Positions 3,830 to 23,382 of a stretch of DNA of 64,000 nt are shown piece after piece (within the stretch, counting starts at the first letter, position 1; every line of letters begins with the position of its first letter). Under the pieces are notes generated by a model, which saw only the letters and a program-made list of their open reading frames with translations, did not search any database and was not told the DNA's origin. The stretch comes from Rhodospirillaceae bacterium bin65 (GTDB lineage: Bacteria > Pseudomonadota > Alphaproteobacteria > Bin65). The stretch is from assembly GCA_002238725.1 (NCBI GenBank), contig MPMX01000007.1, positions 1 through 64,000 on the forward strand. The letters run 5' to 3'. The translations under genes and the position numbers were made by a program.

Positions 3830-4318
3830 AAGAGATGTCGGCTGCACGAGGCAACTCGCCCATTCGTCATATCGACCGGAGCAGTCCGAAGGGCTGCGGA
3901 GCGGAGATATCTTTGGGGATTATATCTGTGACTATGCGTTGGCAGCCCACAGCCGCTCCAATTGCCGAGGCCGCAAGATCCCCTCAGTGCCACCCCGGAT
4001 GGAGCGAAGCGGAAGTCCGGGGACCAGAGCCGCCCGGCACGCCTGCCCTGAGCGAAGTCGAAGGGGCCTCGCCTCGTGGCTCTGGGCCCCGGATCGGGGT
4101 CCGGGGCGGCAATGTTGGTGTCTTTCGGACATCGACGAACGAGCGGCCCTTGCAGTTTCCACCGGCTTCCTCTCGCCGTCGGAGGGAAATCCGGCACTGC
4201 ATGGTCAAGCATATAAATCCCATATCTTTCCTGCACGGAGGCGGGTTCGAAGCGCGGTACCGGAAGGATTTCTCCACTCGCTACGCTCGGTCTAATTGAC
4301 GGATCGACAGGGCGGCTC
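3830..4318. other. 489-bp gene-free gap with a repeat copy
   Basis: This gap separates the penicillin-acylase gene from the alpha/beta hydrolase. I see no convincing gene in it; the open frames here have no family resemblance. Its middle part (3989 to about 4190) is copy A of the dispersed repeat described separately. The remainder, 3830-3988, shows nothing that I recognise. Confidence 0.7.
3989..4190 (+). repeat. dispersed repeat copy A (122-bp inverted-repeat core plus flank)
   Basis: The core 3989-4110 begins GCCACCCCGGAT and ends GTCCGGGGCGGC, an imperfect 12-bp terminal inverted repeat, and contains the internal segment GCCCTGAGCGAAGTCGAAGG. About 80 bp of conserved flank follow (CGACGAACGAG ... 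CACCGGCTTCC). The same 122-bp core lies at 15089-15210, and an inverted, interrupted copy lies at 5245-5624. It holds no open frame of note, so it is best read as a small non-autonomous mobile repeat. Confidence 0.8.
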
Positions 4319-5149
4319 TTGACCTTGCACGTCCACCATCGCGAACGGGGCGCCGGGCCACCGCTCGTTCTGCTGCACAGCGCCGGCACGGGCGCCTCGC
4401 AATGGCGCGGCGTGGCGGACCGGCTTGGCGGCCGGCGTCGCCTGCTCATGCCCAACCTGCGCGGCTACGGCCGCACCCCGGCGCCGGACCCCGCTGCGCC
4501 GCCGCTCGACGAAGAGGTCGCCGTGGTCCGGGAAATGGCGGCGCTGGCCGGCGCGCCGGTCCATCTGGTCGGCCATTCGCTCGGCGCGCTGGTGGCGCTG
4601 CACCATGCATTGCGCCATCCCGAAACGGTGGCGGGACTCACCCTGATCGAGCCGGTGATCGTCGGCATCCTGCACGCCGGCCTGGCGGACGGCGACCCGG
4701 CGGCCGGGCGCAGCCTGGACGAGATCGGCGCCATGATCGCCGCCTTCCAGGAAGCGATAGCCGACGGCGACACCGCCGCGGCGATGCGCGCCTTCACCGA
4801 ATACTGGGAGGGCTCCGGCGCGTGGGACGCGATTCCGGCGGCGGCCCGGCTGCCCTTCTTCGCCCGGGCGGAGAAGATGGCGGCCGACGTCGACCTGGCC
4901 TGGGCCGACCGGACCGGCCGGGGGCGGTTCGCGGCGCTCGCCCGTCCCGCGCAGGTGCTGAGCGCCGAGCGCACGACCCCGGCGGCGCACGACATGGCCC
5001 GGCGCATCGCCGATGCCCTGCCAGACGCCGAGTTCGCGACGATCCCGGCTGCCGGCCACATGGCCCCGGTCACCCACCCGGCCGCGGTGGCGGACCTGCT
5101 GCTGGAGTTCGGGGAGCGGATACCGGGTTGGGCAGGCCGCGCCGGCTAG
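4319..5149 (+). CDS. alpha/beta-fold hydrolase
   Basis: Serine hydrolase of the alpha/beta superfamily, 276 residues, predicted cytosolic; substrate unknown. Landmarks in order are LVLLHSAGTGASQW (oxyanion-hole region), the nucleophile elbow GHSLG with Ser87, and a late AAGHMAPVTHP segment giving the catalytic His. The acidic member is probably in the segment before it, but I cannot fix it. The start used is TTG at 4319 because no ATG occurs early in the frame; an in-frame start further down would remove the first strand. It stands alone between two repeat-filled gaps, so its context gives no functional hint. Confidence 0.82.
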   Translation: MTLHVHHRERGAGPPLVLLHSAGTGASQWRGVADRLGGRRRLLMPNLRGYGRTPAPDPAAPPLDEEVAVVREMAALAGAPVHLVGHSLGALVALHHALRHPETVAGLTLIEPVIVGILHAGLADGDPAAGRSLDEIGAMIAAFQEAIADGDTAAAMRAFTEYWEGSGAWDAIPAAARLPFFARAEKMAADVDLAWADRTGRGRFAALARPAQVLSAERTTPAAHDMARRIADALPDAEFATIPAAGHMAPVTHPAAVADLLLEFGERIPGWAGRAG

Positions 5150-5244
5150 AACGGATTCTCGACGCGCTCGTCCCGTGGACGTTCTTCAAGGCCGGGAAAA
5201 GCGAGCAGGTGATCGACGAATGAGCCTCTGCCCGCCTGCGCGGC

Positions 5245-5624
5245 GGCGGGAGGAAGCCGGTGAAAACTGCAAACGTTACTCGTTCGTCGACGGCCAAAAC
5301 CAATTTTACCGCCCCGGACTTGTTCCCATAAGCGCTAACTTTGGTGCCTGCGGCATGTTTCGAGACGCTCAATTGGCCAAAACAGTGGCCGACGAGCCGG
5401 TTCGCCGGCCGATTCCAACAATTTCTTCCCCTTCGTCGGGCCTGAGGACCAGTGGCAAGCAGGACTCACTGCCATTCAAGTTCCGCCCGCGAAACAAGTT
5501 AGCGCTTATGGGACTTGTTCCGGGGCCCAGGGCCTGCCCTGAGCGAAGCCGAAGGGCCAACCCGAAAGGCCTTGGCCCGTGGCCCCTGGGCCCCGGATCT
5601 CCGCTGCGCTCCGTCCGGGGCGGC
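5245..5624 (-). repeat. dispersed repeat copy C, inverted and split by a nested element
   Basis: This is copy C of the repeat at 3989-4190 and 15089-15290, in the opposite direction. The flank with GGAAGCCGGTGAAAACTGCA (5251 onward) is the reverse complement of the flank that follows the core in copies A and B. The core runs from CCGCCCCGGAC at 5309 to GTCCGGGGCGGC at 5613-5624. It is broken at 5326/5327 by a 184-bp inserted element; the 11-bp sequence GGACTTGTTCC appears on both sides of the insert. Taking out the insert and one duplication leaves a core like that in A and B. The region lies in the 635-bp gap 5150-5784, which holds no gene I can support. Confidence 0.8.
5327..5510. mobile_element. 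184-bp MITE-like element with 15-bp terminal inverted repeats
   Basis: The left end CATAAGCGCTAACTT (5327-5341) is the exact reverse complement of the right end AAGTTAGCGCTTATG (5496-5510). The sequence GGACTTGTTCC directly flanks both ends (5316-5326 and 5511-5521), as expected for an 11-bp target-site duplication. No transposase frame fits inside, so it is a non-autonomous element that would be moved in trans. A duplication of this length is in the range known for the IS4-like group; that assignment is inference. Confidence 0.85.
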
Positions 5625-5784
5625 AACGACGGAATTATTTTTACCGAAGGCTATCGGAGCGGCGTATCGAAGGGCCGGCTGCTGCCGTTGCCCGATAACG
5701 CGCCCGCCGGTACAACCGGTCAGCCCCGTAGTGCAGCCACAAACAGCCGTGCAGGCGGCCGGGGCGCAGGAAGGACACAATCGC

Positions 5785-6816
5785 ATGAGCAACACCGGTA
5801 CGGGCAGGCCCGTCCATCTCGTCGGCAGCGCGCCGTTTGCGGCCGCGGAGGAGATGTTCCGCGCGGCGGCGGAGCATCTGGGGCCGCATCTCAGGCGCCT
5901 GCCCGACGGCGAGGTCGGCGAGCGCGACAGCTGGATCAAGTGGCAGCATGCGCGCATCGGCCGGAGCCCGCAGTTCCGGCTCGTCGAGGTCGACCCGGTC
6001 TATGTCCCGGTGGCTCCTTACGAACTGGTCGAGGGCGTGGCCTCGGCCGACGACATCGAACTGCCGGATCTCGGCTACGCCGACGCGGCCATCGAGTCCT
6101 ACGCGACGTTCGACCGGCTGACCGGCGAAGGCGTCATCCCGCCCGGCGTGCGCTTCCAGGTCGGCCTGCCGACGCCGCTCTCGGTCGCCAGCGTCTATGT
6201 CGTGCCGCCCTCGCGCGCCCTGTTCGAGCAGGCCTACGGCCGAGCGATGGGGCGGGAGCTGGACCGGATCGTGGCCGCAGTCCCGGCGGAGAAGCTGGCG
6301 ATCCAGTGGGAGGCCGCGGTCGAGTTCGCGCTGCTCGAAGGCGTCATGCCCGGCCACCTGGGCGACGACATGCTCGACGGCATCACCGGCCGGCTCGCCG
6401 GCTGCGTCGATCTCGTGCCGGCGGGCGTCGAGGCCGGCCTCCATCTGTGCTACGGCGATTCCGGGCACAAGCATTTCTGCGAGCCGGCCGACGCCGGCCA
6501 CCTGGCCGCCGTAGCGACGGGCGTCTCGGCGAAGGCCGGCCGCGCGATCGACTGGATCCACATGCCGGTGCCGAAAGAGCGCGACGACGACGCCTATTTC
6601 GCGCCGCTCGCCGGGCTGCGCCTCAAGCCGGGCTGCGAACTCTATCTCGGCCTGGTCCACACCACCGGCGGCATCGAAGGCACCCGCCGCCGCATCGCCG
6701 CCGCGGAGAAGGTCGTACAGGATTTCGGCATCGCCACCGAATGCGGCCTGGCGCGGAGGCCTGCGGAGACCATCCCGGCGCTGTTAAGGCAGCATACGGA
6801 GGTGGTGGGGGCGTAA
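5785..6816 (+). CDS. MetE-like (UROD/MetE superfamily) zinc protein of unknown substrate
   Basis: The 343-residue protein starts at ATG 5785 behind a good AGGAAGGA ribosome site at about 5769-5776. It has no recognised named function. The pattern LHLCYGDSGHKH (His220, Cys222) and the late TECGLARRP (Cys320) match the H-x-C and C-G-L zinc ligands in the C-terminal barrel of cobalamin-independent methionine synthase. The total length fits a single barrel rather than the two of MetE. By analogy it may activate a thiol for methyl transfer, but neither methyl donor nor acceptor is evident. It stands alone: upstream is a repeat region, downstream an A+T-rich island. An earlier in-frame start at 5515 would run back through repeat DNA and is rejected. 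Confidence 0.7.
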   Translation: MSNTGTGRPVHLVGSAPFAAAEEMFRAAAEHLGPHLRRLPDGEVGERDSWIKWQHARIGRSPQFRLVEVDPVYVPVAPYELVEGVASADDIELPDLGYADAAIESYATFDRLTGEGVIPPGVRFQVGLPTPLSVASVYVVPPSRALFEQAYGRAMGRELDRIVAAVPAEKLAIQWEAAVEFALLEGVMPGHLGDDMLDGITGRLAGCVDLVPAGVEAGLHLCYGDSGHKHFCEPADAGHLAAVATGVSAKAGRAIDWIHMPVPKERDDDAYFAPLAGLRLKPGCELYLGLVHTTGGIEGTRRRIAAAEKVVQDFGIATECGLARRPAETIPALLRQHTEVVGA

Positions 6817-12344: not shown

Positions 12345-12463
12345 CCCCTCGATACGGCGCGCAAGCGCGCCTACTCGGGATGAGGGGATAATGTTCGAAT
12401 CACACCCTCGCCCTGACCCTCGCCCTGAGTAGCCCCGGAATCATTCCGGGGCGTATCGAAGGG
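12345..12463. repeat. paired palindromic repeat, locus 2
   Basis: Plus copy 12345-12387 (CCCCTCGATACGG, hairpin GCGCGCAAGCGCGC, CTACTCGGGATGAGGGG) and minus copy 12423-12463 (CCCTGAGTAGC, hairpin CCCCGGAATCATTCCGGGG, GTATCGAAGGG) face each other across about 35 bp. The hairpin stems are strong, but their sequence differs between copies while the outer arms are kept. It lies between the fusion gene and the acyl-CoA dehydrogenase. Confidence 0.82.
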
Positions 12464-12492
12464 CGGCGCCCCGGCGACAAGGACCGACTCCC

Positions 12493-14805: not shown

Positions 14806-15367
14806 GGGCTGGCGCGCGGCACAGTCTGCCATTCGCGATAAACCGGCCCAATGCCGAAACCTGCGCAACGCTCCGGAAGCCTGCGGGCGCGAGGGCCCGA
14901 CGGAATACGCCAGTCTCGACGACTTCAAGGCCGCGCATGACCGGTATGGTAGCCGGTACCGTGAATTACCCCTCGGTGCCACCCCGGAAGGAGCGGAGCG
15001 GAAATCCGGGGTCCAGGGCCACAGGCAAACGCCTTTCGGGCCGCCCCTTCGGCTTCGCTCAGGGCAGGCTCCCGACGCACCCTTCGTTGCCGCCCCGGAC
15101 GGAGCGCAGCGGAGGTCCGGGGACCAGAGTCGCCCGGCACGCCTGCCCTGAGCGAAGTCGAAGGGGCATCGCCTTGTGGCTCTGGGCCCCGGATCGGGGT
15201 CCGGGGCGGCATTGTCGGGTATTTTCGGGCGTCGGCGAACGGGCGGCGTTTGGAGTTGTCGCCGGTGTCCCCCCGCCGCGCGTCAAGTAATCGGGATAAC
15301 GCCCGTTTCAAACCTTCCCCTAAATAGTCGGCCGGGCTTTCGGGAAAATGTCTCCGAAAATTCCGGG
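14806..15367. other. 562-bp gene-free gap with repeats and a possible gene remnant
   Basis: The gap lies between hspQ and the converging FAD-oxidase gene. Positions 14976-15070 hold a partial or rearranged copy of the dispersed repeat (GCCACCCCGG ... CTTCGGCTTCGCTCAGGGC), and 15089-15290 the full copy B. Before them, near 14891-14970, one frame reads GPTEYASLDDFKAAHDRYGS, which looks like a piece of a protein but has no start or family I know; it may be a gene remnant. Confidence 0.55.
15089..15290 (+). repeat. dispersed repeat copy B (122-bp inverted-repeat core plus flank)
   Basis: The core 15089-15210 has perfect 12-bp terminal inverted repeats, GCCGCCCCGGAC and GTCCGGGGCGGC, and is 122 bp like copy A. 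Positions 15120-15211 match 4020-4111 at nearly every base, including the internal GCCCTGAGCGAAGTCGAAGG. The 3' flank (GGCGAACGGGCGG ... CGCCGGTGTCC) is a diverged form of the flank in A and C. Confidence 0.82.
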
Positions 15368-23070: not shown

Positions 23071-23193
23071 CCCTCGATACGGCGCTGCCGCGCCTACTCG
23101 GGATGAGGGAGGTTAGGGATAAGCATTTCTCGTTGCATCCCCGTTACCCTCACCCCGAGTAGCCCCGGATTTAATCCGGGGCGTATCGAAGGG
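23071..23193. repeat. paired palindromic repeat, locus 4
   Basis: Plus copy 23071-23109 (CCCTCGATACGGCGCTGCCG then CGCCTACTCGGGATGAGGG) and minus copy 23147-23193 (CCCTCACCCCGAGTAG, hairpin CCCCGGATTTAATCCGGGG, CGTATCGAAGGG). It fills the first half of the 343-bp gap 23040-23382; the second half is the argD leader, in which I see no other structure. Confidence 0.82.
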
Positions 23194-23382
23194 CGCGCCA
23201 TCCCGCCGCCTCGCCTTTTTCGGCATTTCGCCTTATATCCCGCGGCGTTGAATCGCCTGCCAGGATGAGCGGACGGCGTTTTTCCGGAACGGGAGAGGCG
23301 TCGTCGTTTGCTTTTGCAGCAGGCATGACCCGCCCGGCGGCCGGAAGAATCGGCCACCGGCCCAGACGAAGGAGACAGGATC

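Follow-up and report, generated by a model that had tools for sequence, protein, structure and literature searches.

A 184-bp gene-less element with IS186-type ends, very probably inserted by an IS4-family transposase into the palindrome of a pre-existing REP-like repeat

The window, that is, the whole 64-kb stretch of DNA analysed here, carries an alpha/beta hydrolase gene that ends at 5149 and, downstream of it, an open frame from about 5785 that has no Pfam match. The two frames are co-oriented, and between them lies a copy of a dispersed REP-like repeat (copy C) that is interrupted by a second element. This second element occupies positions 5327–5510 (184 bp, no strand assigned) and is bounded by perfect 15-bp terminal inverted repeats (TIRs), CATAAGCGCTAACTT, at 5327–5341 on the forward strand and at 5496–5510 on the reverse strand, with a 154-bp interior between them. 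The 11-bp sequence GGACTTGTTCC is present as an exact direct repeat on both sides, at 5316–5326 and 5511–5521 (both forward), and is taken as the target-site duplication (TSD). Six-frame translation revealed no frame within the element long enough for a transposase, and its G+C content is 0.565 versus 0.672 for the window. The search of positions 5150–5800 against Rfam gave no match. All the parts described in the initial annotation, namely the 184-bp insert, its exact 15-bp ends and the 11-bp duplicate on either side, were located within 5316–5521.

The window was also scanned for inverted-repeat pairs of at least 12 bp, 50–2500 bp apart, that are abutted by a direct repeat of at least 8 bp. 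The pair bounding the 184-bp element is the only one of this kind in the 64 kb, and none arose when the window was simulated 20 times with a first-order Markov model.

The right part of the interrupted repeat lies at 5511–5632 (forward), and a blastn search with positions 5511–5640 returned 63 matches genome-wide. The element is inserted centrally in a palindrome of the repeat, GCCCCGGA-CTTGT-TCCGGGGC, which the insertion splits into a left arm at 5311–5318 and a right arm at 5519–5526 (both forward). The 11-bp duplication is itself centred on this palindrome, with the two arms placed around CTTGT. At the insertion point the uninterrupted copies read GCCCCGGACTTG(T/A)TCCGGGGCCCAG. The intact palindrome core, CCCCGGACTTGWTCCGGGG, has 17 exact occurrences genome-wide and eight more with one mismatch, while the reversed control pattern has no match in the genome. 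When the 184 bp and one duplicate are removed, exactly this core is restored in copy C, and the site before the insertion is expected from the sequence to have read CCCCGGACTTGTTCCGGGG.

Because uninterrupted cores occur 17 times elsewhere in the genome, the repeat is considered to be older than the insert, and the order of events proposed in the initial annotation is borne out. The same annotation had held that the deletion would restore a core like that of copies A (3980–4178) and B (15016–15278), two uninterrupted copies in the window for which no strand is assigned. This holds for the genome-wide copies, whose core is regained exactly, but not strictly for A and B, which have the same palindrome with another centre (GCCCCGGACCCCGATCCGGGGC); the restored copy C aligns locally to them slightly better than the uncut copy, or equally well. 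Copies A and B alone are therefore a poor test of the order, and the genome-wide copies are the decisive comparison. A second dispersed repeat, distinct from the first, is found in the window at 12408–12465 and 23138–23195; it has a palindrome resembling GCCCCGGA..TCCGGGGC and a tail that reads GTATCGAAGGGCG.

The 184-bp element is present in one copy in its own genome, where it never appears as part of the repeat. No full-length relative was found in the 385 relatives searched, and none was found in plasmids. As the element is single and such relatives are lacking, there would appear to have been no spread to multiple copies, and signs of recent activity are not seen. A 34-bp match to the interior in a congener (G005) is attributed to chance, as Haloarcula matches this stretch similarly and the element's own genome has no such match.

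IS186/IS421 of E. coli, of the IS4 family, has ends identical to the 15-bp end of the element. A scan of viral contigs with the end plus AA (17 bases) returned 1339-bp elements having both ends, which were identified as IS186B/IS421 of E. coli and carry the annotation 'IS4-like element'; the viral-contig scan for short paired ends gave no match. The duplications at the IS186 copies mostly have the form GG-N6-CC, which is consistent with the published target GGGG(N6/N7)CCCC (PMC6925257), and many of them lie in palindromes; the copies examined duplicate 10 bp.

Related insertion sequences (IS) are present in other genomes. The IS4 family is characterized by a DDE transposase with a Y(2)R(3)E(6)K motif and by duplications near one helix turn (PMC2266710). 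The congener G006 has a 339-aa open frame related to the IS186 transposase, which matches PF01609 and NF033592 (E 3.6e-30); the NF033592 match falls below the model cut-off and begins only at profile position 101. The string YRLRWQVELVFKRFK in the congener transposase conforms to the IS4 motif. No matching flanking duplication was found at this frame, and in view of this and of the partial profile coverage the frame may be decayed. In the same congener a 689-bp internally deleted IS copy is bounded by CATAAGCGTCAACTTGT and CATAAGCGTTAACCTGT; its 11-bp duplication is exact and reads GGACAATATCC, close to GGACTTGTTCC of the window. In the genome G622 the two parts of an IS186-like transposase are on separate contigs, beside ends that are exact in 15 of 15 positions, and the stop codon is 171 bp from the end, the same distance as in IS186. 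Rhizobium IS4 elements with the ends CATATGCGCTAGGTT likewise give 11-bp duplications.

In the window's own assembly no IS186-like transposase was found, and its one PF01609 match has no such ends nearby. It is possible that an IS copy was missed by the assembly, which is 96% complete and consists of 94 contigs. From the lack of an IS186-like transposase it would appear that the element was mobilised in trans or that the source IS has been lost. The earlier reading that the insert is non-autonomous and that its transposase must act from elsewhere agrees with these observations, and to that reading the present analysis adds the family to which the mobiliser belongs and the finding that the insertion falls exactly in the middle of the palindrome. 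In the four MITE-bearing MAGs, the transposases detected with PF01609 lack matching ends, and they were rejected.

The element behaves like a MITE of an IS186-like IS4 element. It is short, lacks a transposase gene, and has perfect TIRs and a TSD; its TIRs are shared with autonomous elements, being identical to the ends of IS186 and of the IS in G622 and agreeing in 13 of 15 positions with those of the deleted IS copy in the congener. The occurrence of many copies per genome, which is usual for MITEs and not strictly required, is not seen here. A duplication of 11 bp lies within the range of 7–13 bp given for the IS4 subgroups (PMC2266710). When the ends are compared with the consensus of the IS231 subgroup, CAT-------AA--TAA--- (PMC2266710), the CAT, the AA at 11–12 and the T at 15 match, and the AA at 16–17 is absent (TG on the left, GT on the right), whereas IS186 itself matches the whole pattern. 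The published target of IS186 is GGGG(N6/N7)CCCC (PMC6925257), whereas the target in the window is CCCC-GGACTTGTTCC-GGGG, which is palindromic and has GG-N7-CC inside but lacks GGGG..CCCC; the element is therefore IS186-like and not IS186. Because of the single copy, the partial agreement with the end consensus and the different target, it is classed as MITE-like and non-autonomous, present in a single copy and bearing IS186-type ends.

It may be asked whether the element is simply an internal-deletion derivative of one IS186-like IS that has lost its transposase gene. The agreement of its ends with IS ends, and the presence of the 689-bp internally deleted copy in the congener, would fit such an origin. 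The interior, however, is unlike IS186, the IS of G006, the deleted copy of G006 and the copy in G001; no similarity to the IS bodies or to the window flanks rises above the level of shuffled sequences. Only the right end, which reads CATAAGCGCTAACTTGTTT, continues (GTTT) like the ends of the congener IS. The element is therefore not a simple deletion of any sampled IS, and an origin of this kind is rather unlikely.

Retention of the element as a transcribed hairpin, a terminator or a small RNA between the flanking genes is very improbable. Its single strand does fold better than shuffled sequences (z -4.16) and the open frames on either side of it are co-oriented, but the paired TIRs make up much of the fold, and the element has no Rfam match, is present in a single copy and has no relatives in the congeners. 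It is more improbable still that the 184 bp are native to a longer version of the repeat and were lost from the other copies. Both parts together are seen at one locus only, as this would allow, but all the other copies would have to have lost the 184 bp precisely. This reading is refuted by the intact palindromes, of which at least 17 are exact, and by dozens of further copies that lack the insert, and the perfect TIRs and the 11-bp duplication mark an insertion. The initial annotation had named copies of the repeat that always contain the 184-bp part as the outcome that would speak against an insert, and the genome-wide copies lack that part. An artefact of assembly or binning, by which the element was wrongly joined to the contig, has a negligible probability, since a precise 11-bp duplication with both repeat flanks in place is not expected from it, even though the element is unique in this draft genome of 94 contigs.

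The 184-bp sequence is thus considered a MITE-like element that was very probably inserted by an IS4-family (IS186-like) DDE transposase into a REP-like repeat that was already present. The single copy, the lack of an IS186-like transposase in the assembly, the dissimilar interior, the departure from the IS186 target and the possible decay of the G006 frame count against this reading. The transposase of an IS186-like IS, acting in trans, would recognise both CATAAGCGCTAACTT ends, and the element would be excised from its donor site, presumably by cut-and-paste chemistry. It would then be joined to staggered cuts 11 bp apart, centred on GCCCCGGA-CTTGT-TCCGGGGC, and repair of the gaps would yield the duplication of GGACTTGTTCC. 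The transposase may have been supplied by an IS that is now lost, unassembled or transferred, and the choice of the target may have been guided by the palindromic, hairpin-prone centre of the REP-like repeat. The nested insertion is a clear, textbook-like case and not a novel type of element.

Gene-less elements with such ends were also sought in bacterial genomes, with two ends 139–169 bp apart matched on the inner 12 bases only. Six loci were obtained in Deltaproteobacteria, Lentisphaerae and Nitrospinota MAGs, and the outer CAT is present in all of them. Three of the six have exact 11-bp duplications (CCCCTCCAGGG, GGGCTCCACAG and CCCCCACACCC). These related elements (L035–L040) are 177–189 bp long and have the same 15-bp ends and GC-rich targets. 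They differ from the element in the window in that their interiors vary between hosts and often have palindromic repeats inside, and some hosts have multiple copies. Gene-less elements of this kind, as in L035 (7460–7647), L039 (86–269), L196 and L197, often have interiors made up of two palindromic-repeat copies in inverted orientation (e.g. TGTCATTCTGAGCGAAGCGAAGAATCTC), and palindromes in interiors of this type look as if they were nested there.

Other arrangements of IS186-type ends were also observed. A Lentisphaerae MAG (G387) has a 545-bp element with ends of the same type and a 10/11-bp duplication (L091, 1171–1715), which encodes a 23S rRNA intervening-sequence protein (PF05635, E 4.8e-12) and whose flanking arms are similar to the interior of the gene-less 177-bp element in G387. 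On contig 7 of G387, two ends of the same type have the same orientation and a spacing of 603 bp (L092, 1210–1827); GGGCGCTGCCC and its reverse complement stand before them, and the stretch between them has tandem repeats. A 586-bp element in G534 (L186, 243–828) has the same ends, a truncated GIY-YIG domain (PF01541) and palindromic repeats of the type GTCATTCCGGCGAAAGCCGGAATCC close to both ends. In G386 two IS186-type ends stand back to back with no interior (CATAAGCGCTAATTTAAGTTAGCGCTTATA; L061, 1501–1530), possibly a deletion remnant. In G389, a Nitrospinota MAG, an AT-rich stretch of differing character directly abuts an IS186-type end at a contig edge (L054, 1–300), and this junction may be a misassembly.

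It is conceivable, though doubtful, that the elements with IS186-type ends form a cross-phylum class of small carriers with constant 15-bp ends, which insert into palindromic repeats of the host and acquire palindromes specific to that host as well as small genes, such as the intervening-sequence protein gene in L091 and the GIY-YIG fragment in L186. The element in the window would then be a gene-less member.

The clean nested insertion gives the order of two mobile repeats. By 15 identical terminal bases, gene-less elements of uncultured bacteria from several phyla are tied to the well-studied IS186 type of transposase, and a non-autonomous example is added to the use of repetitive palindromes as landing sites by the IS4 family. 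The general understanding of such elements is unchanged.

Among known systems, IS186/IS421 of E. coli and the element in the window are alike in the terminal 15 bp, in a GC-bounded and often palindromic target, and in a duplication of about one helix turn. In contrast, IS186 is 1339 bp long with a transposase and makes a 10-bp duplication in the copies examined, whereas the element in the window has no gene, an unrelated interior and 11 bp. The IS of the congener G006 (L180 and L184), from the same genus, is similar in the ends of its deleted copy, CATAAGCGTYAACYTGT, and in its 11-bp duplication GGACAATATCC, which resembles GGACTTGTTCC; it differs in that a transposase or a remnant of one is present and in its dissimilar interior. 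The literature search found no paper that joins ISRm22, IS186 and MITEs. ISRm22, of the IS4 family, sits inside REPs of Sinorhizobium meliloti in ten of the ten copies tabulated (PMC1525189), and provides a precedent for IS4-type targeting of REP palindromes. The likeness to the case described here is one of target and family: in both, an IS4-family insertion lies in alphaproteobacterial repetitive palindromes and the duplication has GC pairs at its ends (PMC1525189), ISRm22 being autonomous with 10 copies in REPs and the element in the window being one non-autonomous copy.
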